A stretch of 45,928 bases of DNA from Bdellovibrionales bacterium (GTDB lineage Bacteria > Bdellovibrionota > Bdellovibrionia > Bdellovibrionales > UBA1609): assembly GCA_023301025.1 (NCBI GenBank), contig JALZUR010000003.1:1-45928 (forward strand). Reading direction: 5' to 3'. Below are positions 26,178 through 35,876 of this stretch, piece by piece. The position numbers and the translations under genes were made by a program. The notes beneath the pieces are model-generated. The model was not told the DNA's origin. It saw only the letters and a list, made by a program, of their open reading frames with translations, and searched no databases. How positions within the stretch are numbered: the stretch's first letter is position 1; every line of letters starts with the position of its first letter.

Positions 26178-27551
26178 CTATAAGTTTAATTCTCTTGTGT
26201 AGTGAGTCCAGTCTTTTTCGCCAAATGATCTGACTTTGTACCGTCTTTTACTCATTATTTCTAAAACCGAGTAATTATAAACACCATCTTTTCCCACAAG
26301 CTGTCTTGGATTAGGATGCTTTTTAAAGGAATCTTTATAGACTTTTGCATGTATTGCACTTGAAGTGATTTCAAAAGACTTAAAACCAAATTCTTTAGAA
26401 CCAACACTTGTAATTTCTGATAAATGCCTATCACCACTTATAAACATCACAGGGGCTTTTCTTTTTTCAACTGCTTTTGTAAGTTTTTTAAACTGTTCGG
26501 GGTGTTGCCTTTCAAAAGATTCAAAGGGATGATACCCCCCAAAAAACTGATCACCTTTAATGAGCCACAAAGGTGTTTTTTTATTTTTAGCTAAACTTTT
26601 TAATACAAAATCAAACTGCGCTTCACCTAAATGCTGGCCTTTTGAATGTTCAACATCCCTGTAGTACCTACCATCTAAAAATAAAAACTTTTGACCGTAG
26701 GCCTCAAGAACTGATCCTGCTCCAAAAGAAGTTGTTTTAAAATGCTCAACTTCATATCTTGGAAAAAATGCATTGAACACAGACAAGGCTTTGTCTTTCT
26801 CTTTAAAAGCTACGCCTCCGTCTTGTTTTCCATAGTCATGATCATCCCATAGTGCAAAGACAGGGGTTAGGCTTGAGCTATGATAAAAATAGAGCCTTTT
26901 AAACGTCTCAAAGTACCTGTTCCACAAATGACTGTGAAAGTTTTTAGATACGTCTAACAAACCAACAGTGGCGTATACATTGTCCCCAATAAAAAAATTA
27001 AGATCCGTGAACTTATTTAAGTACGAAGACCACATTTTCATAGCTTCATCTGTGAAACGATCATCCATACACGAAACTAATCCAATACGAGGTCTAAGTT
27101 TTTTTGAATCTAAGACTTTGAAAGTTCTTTCATCTATAATTTTATTTTTAGATTTTACAACAAACTTATAAAGTTGATTGATTTTAAGATTTTTTATATG
27201 GATGTGATGAATCTGTTTTTTTAAATCAGGAGATGTATGGGCTTTAAAAACCTCTAATTTATTAAGACCTGATAGTTTAGGAACTTTTAAACTCTTAGGC
27301 TCTGGCTCGTTATCAACAGGTTCTAAATCGATAAGCTCAGAGTCATCTACAGGGCCATAAAAGTACTCTAACGAGCTAAGTTTATCTTCAAAAACTACGC
27401 CTATATAAGTTTCATCTGAATCCGTTGCGCCTTGTAGAATTGCTAAAGGGTGGCTTTTATATAAAGAAACATGACCTGTCTTCTTTTTTAAAACCATGCA
27501 AGACGTAAGAGACAGTAAAATAAGAAAATAAAACGTATGACATATGCGCAT
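26178..27551 (-). CDS. PhoD-like phosphatase/phosphodiesterase lipoprotein
   Basis: The 457-residue protein has a lipobox LTSC with Cys18 and a metallophosphatase domain of the alkaline phosphatase D type: GLVSCMDD, FFIGDNVY, WDDHDYG, LFLDGRYYRD and a C-terminal MFISGDRHLSE. These carry the Asp, Asn and His ligands of a Ca/Fe or binuclear metal site. An N-terminal ~130-residue beta domain precedes it, as in PhoD relatives. It likely hydrolyses phosphoesters at the cell surface or in the periplasm. It begins 21 nt after aroC with a weak ribosome binding site and could be read from the shikimate operon. Confidence 0.85.
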   Translation of the reverse strand: MRICHTFYFLILLSLTSCMVLKKKTGHVSLYKSHPLAILQGATDSDETYIGVVFEDKLSSLEYFYGPVDDSELIDLEPVDNEPEPKSLKVPKLSGLNKLEVFKAHTSPDLKKQIHHIHIKNLKINQLYKFVVKSKNKIIDERTFKVLDSKKLRPRIGLVSCMDDRFTDEAMKMWSSYLNKFTDLNFFIGDNVYATVGLLDVSKNFHSHLWNRYFETFKRLYFYHSSSLTPVFALWDDHDYGKQDGGVAFKEKDKALSVFNAFFPRYEVEHFKTTSFGAGSVLEAYGQKFLFLDGRYYRDVEHSKGQHLGEAQFDFVLKSLAKNKKTPLWLIKGDQFFGGYHPFESFERQHPEQFKKLTKAVEKRKAPVMFISGDRHLSEITSVGSKEFGFKSFEITSSAIHAKVYKDSFKKHPNPRQLVGKDGVYNYSVLEIMSKRRYKVRSFGEKDWTHYTRELNL

Positions 27552-27572: not shown

Positions 27573-28559
27573 CTAATTCTTGTAAACCTTATTGGTCAAA
27601 TAGAGATCCATCAAAACCAAATAAACCATGGACTCAACAACTGCCAAAGCACGAGGCACAATACAAGGGTCATGACGACCTTTTTTTGCAACATCTAAAA
27701 TTGAAGATGTGGGCTTAACCTCTGCATAAAAGCTTATTTTTTGACCATTTGTGATCCCCCCACTTAGTCCTCCATAAACGTCTTCACTCATACTGTGAAA
27801 CTCAGTGCCTTTACACGTTGATAAATCAACATCCGTGCCTAAAGAAAAAGACTTAATGGCTCCAATAGATAAAATGGCTTCAGCAAGCTTTGATTTTGTT
27901 TTTTTAAAAACAGGTTCACCCAAATTTTTCATAGGGCTAACAATTTGAACAGAGATTTTACCGCCATAGCTTTCACCGTCAGCTTTAGCTTTTTTTAAAA
28001 GAGCTTTAGCCTCTTCATTAGAGTCCTTATTAAAAAAACCAAGCTCTAAAAGATCTTTGTTTGTTTTTGAATCTTTATCTTTTACAGGACCAATCGAATG
28101 AGTAGATGCTTGAACTTTAAGTTCTGGATAATTTTGTGTAAAATACATTTTTGCAAAAGCTGCAGCACCTACACGACAAAGGGTTTCACGTCCTGAACTT
28201 CTGCCTCCACCTCTTGGATCACTGTGTCCAAACTTACTCTTCCATGCAAGGTCAGCATGTCCCCTTCTTGGTTTTAAATCCTTATAATCTTCAGACTTTT
28301 GGTTGGTGTTTTTAAAAATACAAGCTATCGGCGTTCCTAAACTCTTACCTTCATAAAAACCACTTAAAAGCTCGGGAGCATCTGGCTCTTTTCTATCAGA
28401 GACATACTTACCACCGGGTCTTCGACGTGCGAGAAAATCTAATAAAATAGATTCATTGTAGATAACATCTGAAGGAAGACCGTCTAAAATAAAGCCCATG
28501 GCTTTACCGTGACTTTCACCAAAAGTCGTAAGTCTAAAAAGGTCACCAAATGTATTCAA
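27573..28559 (-). CDS. aroC: chorismate synthase
   Basis: The 328-residue protein has the AroC motifs FGESHG (13-18), ARRRPGG (44-50), GHADLA and DPRGGGRSSGRET (114-126), with the conserved His and Arg residues that bind FMN and EPSP. It removes phosphate from EPSP to give chorismate, using reduced FMN. It is about 30 residues shorter than the E. coli enzyme (361). The start is a TTG with AGAGG 6 nt ahead, and it overlaps the aroKDE stop in a TTGA junction. It is the last biosynthetic gene of the aroB-aroA-aroKDE-aroC operon. Confidence 0.96.
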   Translation of the reverse strand: MNTFGDLFRLTTFGESHGKAMGFILDGLPSDVIYNESILLDFLARRRPGGKYVSDRKEPDAPELLSGFYEGKSLGTPIACIFKNTNQKSEDYKDLKPRRGHADLAWKSKFGHSDPRGGGRSSGRETLCRVGAAAFAKMYFTQNYPELKVQASTHSIGPVKDKDSKTNKDLLELGFFNKDSNEEAKALLKKAKADGESYGGKISVQIVSPMKNLGEPVFKKTKSKLAEAILSIGAIKSFSLGTDVDLSTCKGTEFHSMSEDVYGGLSGGITNGQKISFYAEVKPTSSILDVAKKGRHDPCIVPRALAVVESMVYLVLMDLYLTNKVYKN

Positions 28560-30265
28560 ATCTCACCTCTAATGTTAAAGAACCTCTGCTGTTCTCTAGC
28601 CTGTTTCATAAAAAACTCTTCACCTGAAATATACAAAGCTCCAGTATTAAGAGCAAGAACTCTAGCATTTGAATGCTCTTTATAGTCTAGATCATAAACG
28701 TACTTGATTGATGGGTTTTGATTCAACAAAGCCTCATCAAATTTAGCCTCTGTGCCAGCACACCAAAGTACAGTATCACAGTCTTTTACATTGTTATGGT
28801 TATCAAAACCTCTTGATGACAGAAGAAACGCTTTATTCCCTAACTTTTCTTTAAACACTTTTGAAATAGCACCACTACCCCAAATTAACACCTTAAGATT
28901 TTTTTTTAAAAATTGATCGACCCATGATTGCACGCCAGCACTATCTGTAAACTCACCTTTAGCCTTTAAGAGATCTAAAGTGTTGCTAATCTTTAAACCT
29001 ATTAACTCACCAGCCTCTTTTTTAAAAGGAGATGTCACTGATAAAAACCTTACACCTTCTTTTTTTAAAACTTTTACAACTTCACTAAAAGACTCTTTAG
29101 GACAAGAGATATTTAAATAGTGTGAGTTAAATTTATTCCTAAAAAAATGTCTATGCGAAGAAGGTGACCAAGAAAGCTTGGTCTGAGAACCTAGAACAGC
29201 TCCAATATTCTTTTTATCAAAATGAAATGATTCTGAATACAATGGCTGATCTAAATACTCAGTGTCAGCATATCTATAAAATTCAATTTTATTATCGGCT
29301 GTTAGACGAAGCCACTTAAAGGCTCCATCTAAGTTCTTAGACCTCGGAAGAAAACTTATATTTTTAAAAGTTACAGACTTTTTAAATTTTAGGGCTTCAT
29401 CTAAACTCTTAACAACAGGTGCCCATTTTATATGTTGCTCAGTTTTAAATAAAGATACAGCTTTATTATTAAATTGTTTTTCATGACAAGAAAAAAAGAA
29501 ACTCTTATTTGCTACTTTTTCTAAGAGAGCCTCACTAGTGTTAAGTGTTTTTTCATACTCAAGCGGAAGATCTACTACAGCTCCTAAATTTATAGTCTTA
29601 AATAAAAAATCTAAATCTAGAGACTCTTCATTTTTTATAGAAACTATAAACTTAGAGCTCTTCTTTTGAGTTAAAGCTGATAGAATCTCATCTTTACTAA
29701 AAGTATCTGTTCTAAGCTCAATCTTTCCTTCAAAAATCTTTAGTTCAAAAGCTGTAGACGGAGTAAAGTAGCCTCTACTTTCTCCTATAAGATTTCCATC
29801 AAATATGGAGTGTACAACTCTTAGAGGTTCATTAAGAGAAAAATCTCCTTCTTCTAAACAGAGTTTAAAATCAGAAAACTTTAAGAATAAAGGATCTCTT
29901 ATAGTTTTTCTTGAGAAAAACTCTTCTAAGTCAGACAAGTTTTGATTTAGCCTTGGACGATCAAAAAAAATACGTCCCTCTTTATCAGAAGCTCTTTGAA
30001 CCCAAATAAATTTTGCATTAGTAGGGAAATCAAAACTCTCCAGATCAAAACCAGCACCAAGAGCAATACATTTGTATTTTCTTGTTTCTATTAACTTCTT
30101 TAATGATTCTTTTTCAATTTTTCTAAATTCAGGCTCTCCTTTTTTAGAAAAAATCTCATTGATATCCTGACTCTTTGTGATAAAACCGTCTAAATCAATA
30201 GAGTTTTCTAACTTATCGATAAGATGTGTTTTGCCAACTCCCCTATGACCTATTAAAAAAAACAT
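28556..30265 (-). CDS. trifunctional fusion: shikimate kinase, 3-dehydroquinase (type I-like), shikimate dehydrogenase
   Basis: The 569-residue protein joins three enzymes. Residues 1-~160 are shikimate kinase, with P-loop GHRGVGKT at 6-13 and LGAGF at 69-73. Residues ~165-345 look like a diverged type I dehydroquinase, with IELRTD (Glu183), SCHEK (His261) and IKWAP (Lys280) at the positions of the Glu, His and Schiff-base Lys of that enzyme. Residues ~352-569 are shikimate dehydrogenase, with LSWSPSSH (364-371), TSPFK (Lys415), NTL (428-430), TDSAG (Asp441) and GSGAIS (463-468). The ATG at 30265 (GAGG 6 nt ahead) is preferred to an upstream TTG. It overlaps aroA by 23 nt. The middle domain is the least certain assignment. 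Confidence 0.85.
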   Translation of the reverse strand: MFFLIGHRGVGKTHLIDKLENSIDLDGFITKSQDINEIFSKKGEPEFRKIEKESLKKLIETRKYKCIALGAGFDLESFDFPTNAKFIWVQRASDKEGRIFFDRPRLNQNLSDLEEFFSRKTIRDPLFLKFSDFKLCLEEGDFSLNEPLRVVHSIFDGNLIGESRGYFTPSTAFELKIFEGKIELRTDTFSKDEILSALTQKKSSKFIVSIKNEESLDLDFLFKTINLGAVVDLPLEYEKTLNTSEALLEKVANKSFFFSCHEKQFNNKAVSLFKTEQHIKWAPVVKSLDEALKFKKSVTFKNISFLPRSKNLDGAFKWLRLTADNKIEFYRYADTEYLDQPLYSESFHFDKKNIGAVLGSQTKLSWSPSSHRHFFRNKFNSHYLNISCPKESFSEVVKVLKKEGVRFLSVTSPFKKEAGELIGLKISNTLDLLKAKGEFTDSAGVQSWVDQFLKKNLKVLIWGSGAISKVFKEKLGNKAFLLSSRGFDNHNNVKDCDTVLWCAGTEAKFDEALLNQNPSIKYVYDLDYKEHSNARVLALNTGALYISGEEFFMKQAREQQRFFNIRGEI

Positions 30266-31454
30266 ATTTTTCCTCAAACTTAAAAAACTCAGGAAAGCTT
30301 TTTTCAATAGATTCTGAGCCTTTGATATTAATTTTATAACCCATGTATTTTAAAATGTAAGCTGCCATAAAAATTCTATGATCTAAACTGCAGTCAAAAC
30401 TAAACTCTTTATGGTCCAAAATTTTAGACCCACAACCAAAGACTTTTAGACCTCCATCAACAGACACTGTTTTATAGCCACACAAGCTTAAAAGCTTTTT
30501 TATTTCATCAACTCTGTTTGATTCTTTATAAACCAATTGAGAGGCACCAAAAAGCTCACCCTCTCCATCACAAAAGGCTAAAACAACCATCAATACTGGA
30601 AAAAGGTCAGGATACTTTTTAATATCAAAACTTTTAGATGTATATGTACCAAAATTTTCCGAACTTACTTTAAAATTAGCTCTTTTAACACCTAAAGATT
30701 CTAAAATATCCAGTACTACAGCATCTGGCTGTAGAGAGTCTTTTTTCAAATTCAAAAACTCAACATCTCCCTTTAAAGCTGATAAAACATATAAAAAAGA
30801 GGCTGTGGACCAATCAGCTTCAACTTCAAATTCTTTTTTAACATCTAATGGATTATAATTTTGATCCACTTTAAGAGATAAAGAGTCCCATTCGACTAAA
30901 AACCCAAGGCTTTTTAATAAATCCACAGTCATTAAAAAGTAGTCAGACTCCATTTGAGACAAAAATTTAAGTCTTGTGAACTCTTTAAATCTAAGAGCTG
31001 TTAGCAGTACAGCGGTAGCAACTTGAGTTGTTCTTGTAGATGAAACTTCTAAGTCTTTTACGGAGCTCCACCCATTTGACTGAATCCATAATCCATCTGA
31101 TTCAACTCGAAACTCAATACCTTGAAATTTAAAAAAAATAAAAAGATCTTCATGAGGTCTTTCTAAAAGCTTTTTACTGCACAAGATCTTATACTCACCC
31201 TTAAAACTTGAAAGATACACAGATAAAAACCTAAAAGTTGTTCCACCAAAACCAGCTTGAAACTGAACTAAAGTATTAGAGTCAGATACATCTTTTGAAG
31301 AGTCTTTAAACTTAAGAAGGGCCTCTTTTAAAAGAACAACATCTTTAGCTTCTGCACTCCATTGTGCTTTAAAACTTGAAAAAATAGCCTCTAAAAGTAA
31401 ACATCTGTTAACCAAAGATTTAGATGAAGGCAGTTTTCCTTTATAAACCAGCAT
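30243..31454 (-). CDS. aroA: 5-enolpyruvylshikimate-3-phosphate synthase
   Basis: The 403-residue protein shows EPSP synthase landmarks: PSSKS with Lys12 and Arg17, GGTTFR at 70-75 (NAGTxxR equivalent), ERP at 98-100, SSTRTTQ at 138-144, EADWSTAS with Asp214, the catalytic Asp283 in YPDLFP, KESNR at 310-314 and DHR at 358-360. It condenses shikimate-3-phosphate with PEP. It is diverged and slightly short (E. coli 427). The ATG at 31454 has AGAGG 7 nt ahead and overlaps aroB by 14 nt; an ATG 7 codons upstream lacks a ribosome binding site. GGTTFR differs from the sensitive-type NAGTAMR loop, but inhibitor response cannot be judged from this. Confidence 0.93.
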   Translation of the reverse strand: MLVYKGKLPSSKSLVNRCLLLEAIFSSFKAQWSAEAKDVVLLKEALLKFKDSSKDVSDSNTLVQFQAGFGGTTFRFLSVYLSSFKGEYKILCSKKLLERPHEDLFIFFKFQGIEFRVESDGLWIQSNGWSSVKDLEVSSTRTTQVATAVLLTALRFKEFTRLKFLSQMESDYFLMTVDLLKSLGFLVEWDSLSLKVDQNYNPLDVKKEFEVEADWSTASFLYVLSALKGDVEFLNLKKDSLQPDAVVLDILESLGVKRANFKVSSENFGTYTSKSFDIKKYPDLFPVLMVVLAFCDGEGELFGASQLVYKESNRVDEIKKLLSLCGYKTVSVDGGLKVFGCGSKILDHKEFSFDCSLDHRIFMAAYILKYMGYKINIKGSESIEKSFPEFFKFEEKYVFFNRS

Positions 31455-32433
31455 CAACTTGCCTCTTATATTCATTTACAAAAGACTCAATTGAAATCTT
31501 TATGGGTTTAGGTCCTTTTTCGTCTACAAAAACAAAATTAACACTCTCACCTTGTCTTTTCTTATCGCTATAAAGCTGTTTTTTAACATAGTCTTTTGTT
31601 AGTTTCGTGTCTTTGATCTTTAAAGTAGGTAGAAGGTCTATAAGCTTTAAATAATTTTTATGGTCTAAACAGCCTTTTTCTAGACTCCATTCTAAAGCAA
31701 ATTTTAAGCCATACAGCACTGATAAACCATGAGAACTTTTATTTTTAAGTTCAACTATATGTCCAAAGGTGTGTCCAAGGTTTAAAACAACTCTTTTGTT
31801 TTTTTGCTCATAAGGATCAGACTTTACAGTTTTTGATTTGTAACTCACAAATCTTTTTAAAACCTTAAAGTTCATTGTTCTATTTTTAATGTACTCTTTT
31901 GCCCAAACACTTTGATAGTTAAGTATTATAGTTTTTAAGATTTCTCCTTCAGCATCTTTAAGACTCTTTTTTGAGATCAGCTCTTCAACAAAATAAATTG
32001 ATTTTGGCGGATAAAAGCTACCGATCTGGTTTTTTTTATCTTTGTAGTTAAGAGCAGTTTTTGCACCTACTGAAGCATCTATACAAGAGAGCCAGGTGGT
32101 TGGAACAAGTTCCAAGTCTACCCCTCTTAAGAAAGTAGAGGCTAAAAAACTTATACTATCTAAAAGACTTCCACCACCAATGGCAATGATCTTAGTTTTT
32201 CTGTCAGCCCTATGTTTAAATAAAAAATCAAGATGCTTTTCATAAGACTCTAATGTTTTTAAATTTTCACCACCTTTTAAAAATTTAATTGGGCAGTGAG
32301 TTTTGGAACTTATTTGTTTGGCAAGATGTGGCTTTAGTTTTTGGTCAGCAAAACAAAGGGAGTTTTTGCTAATAATATTTTTTAATTGAAGTTTGTTAGA
32401 AAAAAAAAGCTTTTCATTAAAGGGGCCTAACAA
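31441..32433 (-). CDS. aroB: 3-dehydroquinate synthase
   Basis: The 330-residue protein has GGGSLLDS at 86-93 (NAD-binding), FLRGVDLELVPTTWLSCIDASVG (101-123, motif read in parts), and LNLGHTFGH at 217-225 with metal-ligand histidines, plus His235. These are hallmarks of DHQ synthase, which closes DAHP to 3-dehydroquinate. The TTG start has AGGAG about 8 nt ahead. It is the first gene of the aro operon, separated from the upstream lipoprotein by a strong terminator, so the operon promoter should lie between about 32434 and 32530; no clear -35/-10 pair stands out there. Confidence 0.93.
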   Translation of the reverse strand: MLGPFNEKLFFSNKLQLKNIISKNSLCFADQKLKPHLAKQISSKTHCPIKFLKGGENLKTLESYEKHLDFLFKHRADRKTKIIAIGGGSLLDSISFLASTFLRGVDLELVPTTWLSCIDASVGAKTALNYKDKKNQIGSFYPPKSIYFVEELISKKSLKDAEGEILKTIILNYQSVWAKEYIKNRTMNFKVLKRFVSYKSKTVKSDPYEQKNKRVVLNLGHTFGHIVELKNKSSHGLSVLYGLKFALEWSLEKGCLDHKNYLKLIDLLPTLKIKDTKLTKDYVKKQLYSDKKRQGESVNFVFVDEKGPKPIKISIESFVNEYKRQVDAGL

Positions 32434-32532
32434 AATTTACTCTCCTGATTGAGTGTTCTTTTAAAAGGTTAACAAAAGCTTAAGCTAATGAAAAGAAGAG
32501 CTTTTTGACTGTTCAAATTGAGTTCAATCGGC

Positions 32533-32562
32533 AAAAAAAAACCTGGCTTTCACCAGGTTTTT
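32533..32562 (-). terminator. Rho-independent terminator of the coiled-coil lipoprotein gene
   Basis: AAAAACCTGG (32537-32546) and CCAGGTTTTT (32553-32562) form a 10-bp stem with a 6-base loop. On the minus strand the stem runs into a stretch of U (complement of 32533-32541). It isolates the lipoprotein from aroB. Confidence 0.88.
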
Positions 32563-34875: not shown

Positions 34876-34930
34876 GCCTAGTTTCTAAACGCATTTGTCT
34901 ATTCAAACAAGAGGTGCTAGTAAAGTTCTC

Positions 34931-35410
34931 ATGTGGACATTAAAAATATGTAAAGACAGACATAAATTCTCCTCTTCTCACTTCACTATATTCTCAAAAG
35001 ACAGTGCTGAAGCCCTTCACGGTCACAACTACTATGTGAGTCTTGAAATTGAAGGTGAAACTCTAAATGACCAAGAGCTTTTAATCGATGTTGTAGATTT
35101 AAAAAACTCTTTATCTAAAATACTTAAAAACTGGGATGAAAAAATACTCCTACCTCTGCACTCGAAACACTTAAAGATCAAAGAGAAGGGCCCTAATGAA
35201 GAACACTCAACTGAAGTTCTTTTTTCAAACCGACGCTATATATTTCCGAGCTCTGAGGTGGAGTGCCTAAATCTAAAAAATGTCACAATGGAGGCTTTAG
35301 CTTTTTTAATAAGTGAAGAGTTACAACATGAACTTAAAAGCTTTTCATATCGTGTTGTTGTTAAAGAAAGCCAAGGTCAAGAGGCCTCTTACTACTGCAA
35401 GGAATCTTAA
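34931..35410 (+). CDS. 6-pyruvoyltetrahydropterin synthase homologue, PTPS-III-like (Glu in place of catalytic Cys)
   Basis: The 159-residue protein has the T-fold pterin-synthase zinc site: His17 in SSSHF and His30/His32 in LHGH. The position of the catalytic Cys is filled by Glu27 in the arrangement ExxHGH. That motif marks the PTPS-III subgroup, which makes 6-hydroxymethyl-dihydropterin and can replace FolB in folate synthesis. The ATG at 34931 is chosen because MWTLKICKDRHKF fits family starts. GAGGT lies rather far upstream (about 15 nt), and a TTG at 34895 is an alternative. It is followed after one base by the QueD gene. Confidence 0.82.
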   Translation: MWTLKICKDRHKFSSSHFTIFSKDSAEALHGHNYYVSLEIEGETLNDQELLIDVVDLKNSLSKILKNWDEKILLPLHSKHLKIKEKGPNEEHSTEVLFSNRRYIFPSSEVECLNLKNVTMEALAFLISEELQHELKSFSYRVVVKESQGQEASYYCKES

Positions 35411-35411
35411 A

Positions 35412-35876
35412 GTGAAGATCATGTTCTCTCACAGGTTTGAGGCTGCTCATAGATTTATGGATGCGAGCAGTAAATGCTCAACCCCCCACGGTCACACCTG
35501 GTGGGTGCATCTTGGTTTAGAGCACAAGACATCTAAGATACAAAAGAACAAAAACTACGCTGAAGACTTTGGTCCTTTAAAGAAAAGTTGGCGCCACTTT
35601 ATAGATGAAGAACTTGATCATCATTTTTTTGTTAATAAAAATGACCCTTTAATTGAGGCATTAAAAGAGCATATCCCAAAAGCCAGACTTAAATTTACAA
35701 ATGGAGATCCTACAACAGAAGCTCTAGCCCTGATCTTACTAAATAAGGCTAAAGAAATCTTTAAAGCTTTTAAGGGAATTGAGCCTACAACTTTAAAACT
35801 CCAAGAAACACCAACAAACGCCATTGAAGTTCAAATAAGTGATCTTGAAGACTGGGCAACTTTTGTTAATCTTTAA
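35412..35876 (+). CDS. queD: 6-carboxy-5,6,7,8-tetrahydropterin synthase (QueD type)
   Basis: The 154-residue protein has His13 in EAAHRF, catalytic Cys22 and His26/His28 in CSTPHGH. This CxxxHGH spacing is that of QueD, the second enzyme of queuosine/7-deazaguanine synthesis. The GTG at 35412 is chosen because AAGGA stands 8 nt ahead and it begins right after the stop of the first pterin synthase; an ATG three codons later has poor spacing. No other queuosine genes are in the window. It ends 9 nt from the convergent EpmA-like gene. Confidence 0.87.
   Translation: MKIMFSHRFEAAHRFMDASSKCSTPHGHTWWVHLGLEHKTSKIQKNKNYAEDFGPLKKSWRHFIDEELDHHFFVNKNDPLIEALKEHIPKARLKFTNGDPTTEALALILLNKAKEIFKAFKGIEPTTLKLQETPTNAIEVQISDLEDWATFVNL

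Follow-up and report, generated by a model that had tools for sequence, protein, structure and literature searches.

A chorismate operon of Bdellovibrionota in the domain order of AROM, with a putative type I dehydroquinase inside a three-domain fusion

The AROM polypeptide of fungi and protists carries the shikimate pathway domains in the order B-A-K-D-E. The same order appears in a bacterial operon on the minus strand of contig JALZUR010000003.1 (positions 1 to 45,928, the whole stretch of 45,928 nucleotides being called here the window; assembly GCA_023301025.1, a Bdellovibrionales bacterium), in which aroB, aroA, a fusion of aroK, aroD and aroE (hereafter abbreviated as KDE) and aroC follow one another without gaps. 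This operon matches AROM in order but distributes it over three chains instead of one polypeptide, and thus raises the question posed by the initial annotation, namely whether it is an intermediate form of AROM or an independent convergence. Our analysis indicates that it is very probably the chorismate operon usual in its lineage, encoding a trifunctional KDE with a cryptic type I dehydroquinase, and that its AROM-like order would have arisen independently of the fungal and protist protein.

The operon and the domains of its fusion

The reading frames, the sequence itself and Pfam confirm the gene order and the overlaps proposed initially, which amount to 14 nt between aroB and aroA, 23 nt between aroA and KDE and 4 nt between KDE and aroC. 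The gene for 3-dehydroquinate synthase, aroB (step 2; 31441-32433), has a TTG start after AGGAG and matches Pfam DHQ_synthase (3.8e-31) and DHQS_C (7.5e-18); its product keeps the residues that are invariant across 19 relatives, expected metal ligands included. It is followed by aroA (step 6; 30243-31454, ATG start) for 5-enolpyruvylshikimate-3-phosphate (EPSP) synthase (Pfam EPSP_synthase, 1.3e-30), with substrate-binding and catalytic residues (SKS, Q, PDLFP, KESxR, DHR, K) that are kept in 18 relatives, then by the 569-residue KDE (28556-30265, ATG start) and by aroC for chorismate synthase (step 7; 27573-28559, TTG start; Pfam Chorismate_synt, 8.7e-87). The list of open reading frames also contains alternative starts further upstream for aroA (31475) and KDE (30307). 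These four genes correspond to six enzymes and cover every step from 3-deoxy-D-arabino-heptulosonate 7-phosphate (DAHP) to chorismate, as had been claimed.

The fusion of K, D and E likewise holds, with Pfam recognizing the kinase and the N-terminal domain of the dehydrogenase, and with custom profiles, catalytic residues and genome context defining D. The kinase domain (AroK, ~residues 1-150; 29816-30265) matches Pfam SKI at 2.5e-08 in the window and is matched in 30/30 KDE homologues; it presents the hallmarks of shikimate kinases, i.e. Walker A, DxD and substrate arginines, in the form of conserved GHRGVGKT, DLD, FR..E, RPRL and LID/Arg residues. The C-terminal shikimate dehydrogenase domain (AroE, ~residues 352-569; 28559-29212) matches Shikimate_dh_N at 5.8e-09, and its catalytic Lys415 and Asp441, together with Gln555, are invariant in the 30 homologues, while the NADP-binding GGGG turn is partly kept in the window as WGSGAIS. 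The 30 homologous fusions align over their full length with 26-33% identity to the window protein, for which AlphaFold2 predicts a model with a mean predicted local distance difference test (pLDDT) of 89.7 and a predicted template modelling (TM) score of 0.87.

Between these two lies the putative AroD or type I 3-dehydroquinate dehydratase domain (~residues 147-350; 29216-29827), very divergent and delimited by conserved residues, profiles and a barrel fold. Eight of its residues, E183, R185, D187, S259, H261, K280, R320 and Q340, are invariant across the 30 fusions; when the proteins of Myxococcota are added, all remain invariant except R185 and Q340, which are nearly so. We take E183, R185 and D187 to be the Glu/Arg/Asp strand, H261 the catalytic His and K280 the Schiff-base Lys of the type I active site, and the domain then contains the complete type I signature (Schiff-base Lys, catalytic His and the Glu/Arg/Asp of ELRxD). 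The profile searches proposed at the outset for AroD-like homology in the middle of the fusion did find it. Compared with the PDB, the profile of the D region gives three noteworthy matches, all of them type I dehydroquinases (2ocz, 2.8e-4; 3l9c, 0.03; 2egz, 0.14) that line up with D at its His and Lys motifs, and the profile of the whole KDE aligns with 2gpt from the D region onward. Among 4904 frames of at least 90 aa, the only full-length match of the D profile outside KDE proteins (3e-5) is a stand-alone enzyme of genome G297, which Pfam assigns to DHquinase_I with 2.5e-35. This canonical enzyme belongs to a different cluster (L236, 1708-7709; Bdellovibrionota family f17) that runs from B through the type I dehydroquinase and an E-K fusion to A and then C, the E-K fusion reversing the usual domain order. 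The predicted model of the D domain is a TIM barrel or (beta/alpha)8 (pLDDT 87.8), superposing on the archaeal dehydroquinase 2ox1 with TM-scores of 0.56/0.58.

Genome context provides the strongest support from outside the protein. In a Pfam survey of 119 relatives, DHquinase_I (PF01487) is found in none and DHquinase_II (PF01220) in three, G198, G199 and G200 of family f5, two of which have no KDE match and the third (G199) only a weak one (E 2e-5). The shikimate operon of G198 and G200 has the order A-E-C-K-B adjoining aroQ, all as single enzymes. Nearly the whole group is therefore without a recognizable dehydroquinase, and PF01487 also fails to match any of the 30 KDE members, so that the dehydroquinase of this group escapes the family models. 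The window genome (2.03 Mb, 97.5% complete) is no exception, having no Pfam dehydroquinase of type I or II. Since it also has a single AroB-type gene and a single Shikimate_dh_N match, that of the fusion, the operon appears to be its only route to chorismate, two genes of the DAHP synthase family being located elsewhere in the genome. Four genomes of the same order or class that are at least 96% complete (G130, G220, G270 and G272) show neither AroB nor a shikimate dehydrogenase domain, which suggests that they have lost the pathway.

Several observations count against this assignment. The D domain of the window fusion has no match in Pfam or NCBIfam, the alignment by hhalign of the D profile with the single sequence of E. 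coli AroD is not significant, and the fold search with D alone retrieves TIM barrels in general below E 0.001, with 2ox1 only 28th by E-value. Moreover, the window copy has Lys at residue 211, where nearly all homologues have Arg. Such extreme divergence, with the replacement of one catalytic Arg, is what one might expect if D were a non-working structural remnant and the reaction were performed by another, unrecognized enzyme, a situation with a precedent in Candida albicans Aro1, the dehydroquinase domain of which is inactive (PMC9074039). We consider this very unlikely, given that the catalytic Glu, Asp, Ser/His and Lys do not vary across two phyla in which the remainder of the domain drifts to 16-28% identity, a pattern unexpected for a dead domain, and that 116 of the 119 relatives have no other dehydroquinase of type I or II. 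We infer instead, from its sequence, that D is a type I dehydroquinase that has diverged greatly and probably catalyzes its reaction.

Recurrence and fusion states among relatives

The arrangement found in the window is conserved across a phylum and thus is no peculiarity of one genome, which the initial annotation had named as a finding that would speak against it. KDE was matched (E<=0.001) in 154 of 369 genomes of the phylum, weak matches to single domains being included in this count, and in 20 of 57 genomes of the class of G517. It is present in named Bdellovibrionota including Bdellovibrio bacteriovorus and also in Myxococcota such as Lujinxingia vulgaris; the scan used one kinase motif and the census is incomplete outside these two phyla. 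We compared 107 KDE loci, 93 of them distinct. The order B-A-K-D-E recurs in ~70 of the 107, and the layout of the window, B|A|KDE|C (bars separating the frames), accounts for 58. Neighbouring genes, as estimated from domain starts, overlap at 42/58 junctions for B/A, 43/58 for A/K and 49/57 for E/C. Because the order recurs in this way and most junctions overlap, neither feature can be ascribed to chance. In Bdellovibrionota, B. bacteriovorus included, the genes are normally arranged as B-A-KDE-C. In some relatives, A or C is encoded away from the other genes (L052, L062, L078, L079 and L082).

Other loci show further joints closed. In eight of them, from several Bdellovibrionota, A is fused to KDE in a single frame of 978-1138 aa, with the layout B|AKDE(|C), a state for which a quick tree implies three or more changes. 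Four loci of Bradymonadia-type Myxococcota (L216, L217, L223 and L224) have instead the layout BA|KDE|C, with a BA frame (766-779 aa where complete) directly 5' of KDE and aroC, so that the AROM order is interrupted only between A and K; Lujinxingia vulgaris has a BA frame at another place in its genome (L158). None of the KDE matches in the genomes searched is a complete BAKDE chain, the longest bacterial fusion being A-K-D-E. Frames of 1366 aa (G333/L032) that were considered candidates for such a chain were rejected, since they contain A-K-D-E preceded by an open stretch, and AroB is encoded in a different frame.

Three further situations deserve mention. In RBG_16_40_8 of the Bdellovibrionales (L041/L080), D, E and C share one frame of at least 777 aa, and the kinase is encoded apart from it in an overlapping one, an arrangement that could be real or a frameshift. 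A B-A-KDE-C operon is also present on a contig titled Planctomycetota (L058); its domains cluster within Bdellovibrionota, and it may represent either a mislabelled or mis-binned metagenome-assembled genome or a transfer. Finally, fusions of AroK with AroB in frames of 595-801 aa occur in L134, L140, L142 and L144, which belong to Myxococcota without KDE.

Relation to AROM

The alternative raised at the beginning, intermediate or convergence, was addressed with maximum likelihood trees of the B, A and E domains. They include Myxococcota, one planctomycete and Bdellovibrionota without KDE, with AROM represented by PDB chain sequences; first small trees, in which only γ-proteobacteria and plants represented other bacteria, had been uninformative for A and were replaced. 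In all three, Bdellovibrionota and Bradymonadia-type Myxococcota form one clade, with support of 100/99 for B, 96/96 for A and 100/99 for E. Each domain gives the same two-phylum clade, so that the operon would have reached both groups as one block, by inheritance or by transfer, with different joints being fused by lineage: KDE everywhere, A with KDE in some and B with A in others.

The position of AROM is outside this clade, among ordinary enzymes, in the best trees of B, A and E. Placing it inside is rejected for A, the EPSP synthase domain, with a p-value of 0.0019 in the approximately unbiased test. Profile comparisons with solved structures agree, the scores for the ordinary bacterial enzyme exceeding those for AROM with all four domains compared (221 vs. 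168 bits for B, 242 vs. 200 for A, 67 vs. 49 for K and 73 vs. 47 for E). The predicted packing is also different. When the KDE model is searched with Foldseek, AROM structures (6HQV, 7TBV and 7U5S) come out on top with all three domains in the right order, but with a TM-score of 0.29 and ~19 Å root-mean-square deviation; the plant dehydroquinate dehydratase-shikimate dehydrogenase superposes on the D-E part with TMq 0.53 and 5.8 Å. The model thus suggests that K, D and E do not adopt the spatial arrangement they have in AROM. On the basis of the trees, the profile scores and the predicted packing, independent assembly is the better account of the shared order. This coincidence is not extravagant, because the prior for any one arrangement of five domains is 1 in 120, and the neighbours D-E and B-A recur elsewhere.

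These results do not all point the same way. A clade of AROM with the operon is not rejected for B (p 0.335) or E (p 0.196), the K tree does not resolve the position of AROM and D appears too divergent to be placed relative to it; in addition, other bacteria are thinly sampled in the trees and the window sequences lie on long branches. Convergence would therefore extend from A to the remaining domains only by implication. The non-rejection for B and E could fit with shared ancestry, according to which AROM would go back to a bacterial cluster like this one, ordered B-A-K-D-E, which early eukaryotes may have taken up and which was fully fused and later underwent domain replacement or divergence. 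Its order is identical, the bacterial BA, KDE and AKDE fusions jointly cover every joint of AROM, and AROM chains are the top sequence matches of the KDE profile in the PDB, because both the kinase and the dehydrogenase are matched, in unchanged order. We nevertheless regard shared ancestry as quite unlikely: the EPSP synthase domain rejects it, AROM goes with ordinary enzymes in all the best trees that resolve it, its dehydroquinase is an ordinary and recognizable type I enzyme (as judged with a yeast ARO1 query) whereas that of the operon is not, the predicted packing of K-D-E differs and a complete BAKDE chain is missing from the genomes searched. Still less probable is its more specific version, in which a single ancestral cluster would lie behind both orders, Bdellovibrionota (B|A|KDE and B|AKDE) and Bradymonadia-type Myxococcota (BA|KDE) would retain unfused and half-fused stages, and the EPSP synthase domain of AROM would have been replaced later. 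Of the two alternatives, then, convergence is favoured, most clearly for A, and the intermediate form is the less probable one.

Function, surroundings and known systems

The B, A, K-D-E and C cistrons would be transcribed jointly and probably be coupled in translation. KDE would perform three consecutive steps, from dehydroquinate via dehydroshikimate and shikimate to shikimate-3-phosphate, with AroB as its supplier and AroA and AroC finishing the pathway; the AKDE form would perform four reactions, and BA would unite the enzymes that flank the steps of KDE. Overlaps and fusions may fix the ratio of the enzymes and hold labile intermediates near the next active site, most likely for the sake of equal production and proximity, not tunnelling. 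Channelling is not implied, because the active sites of C. albicans Aro1 are more than 40 Å apart and face outwards (PMC9074039). For the same reason, we find it doubtful that AroB, AroA and KDE assemble stably in the manner of AROM and hand intermediates directly to one another, even if the order is conserved, overlaps are present in about three quarters of the loci and different neighbours are covalently joined in different lineages: even a complete fusion can do without channelling, overlapping genes in an operon do not by themselves call for a complex, and the relatives mentioned above with A or C elsewhere argue against one.

A terminator-like stem between 32590 and the aroB start (32531-32562, minus strand; AAACCTGG/CCAGGTTT followed by a T run), which would be the intrinsic terminator of the preceding gene, likely marks the upstream border; the same stem is also listed on the plus strand. 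Downstream, 21 nt beyond aroC, follows a gene at 26178-27551 (minus strand) for which Pfam gives no match at 1e-5 and which may be cotranscribed with the operon. Further away, two tandem genes of the 6-pyruvoyl-tetrahydropterin synthase family (QueD-like; 34895-35410 and 35313-35876, plus strand) have overlapping frames.

Two implications follow if these assignments are correct. The AROM domain order would be reachable in bacteria stepwise, by fusing different joints in different lineages, and the assembly of multifunctional shikimate enzymes becomes testable in living intermediates. A hole in annotation would also be filled, since most surveyed relatives and, by implication, B. bacteriovorus seem to be devoid of dehydroquinase under Pfam. 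A published metabolic model predicts that B. bacteriovorus is auxotrophic for phenylalanine and tryptophan (PMC7529429), a prediction that might or might not rest on this hole, but the species has a complete chorismate operon (L061). In the open-access literature we found neither K-D-E, A-K-D-E or B-A shikimate fusions nor a bacterial AROM order, prior mention being possible in subscription literature, which lay outside the search.

Among known systems, AROM (PDB 6HQV and 7U5S) is the closest in layout, having five homologous domains in the same order, a type I dehydroquinase and a contiguous KDE half. It differs from the operon in being one chain and not three, whereas aroC is part of the operon; moreover, the domains of the operon belong to a separate bacterial clade (clearly so for A), its dehydroquinase is far more divergent and the packing predicted for K, D and E is not the same. 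Plant dehydroquinate dehydratase-shikimate dehydrogenase (2GPT) and its chlamydial equivalent (NCBIfam PRK09310) share the D-E fusion, and the D-E arrangement predicted for KDE superposes on that of the plant enzyme; KDE is distinguished from both by the kinase in front and by a D sequence that family models do not recognize. The AroK-AroB fusions (NCBIfam PRK13951 and PRK14021), common in Myxococcota outside the Bradymonadia-type clade, resemble KDE in joining shikimate kinase to another enzyme of the pathway, but with a different partner and order. Finally, the operon of family f5 (G198 and G200), from the same order as the window genome, clusters the same pathway with single enzymes, a type II dehydroquinase and a different gene order.

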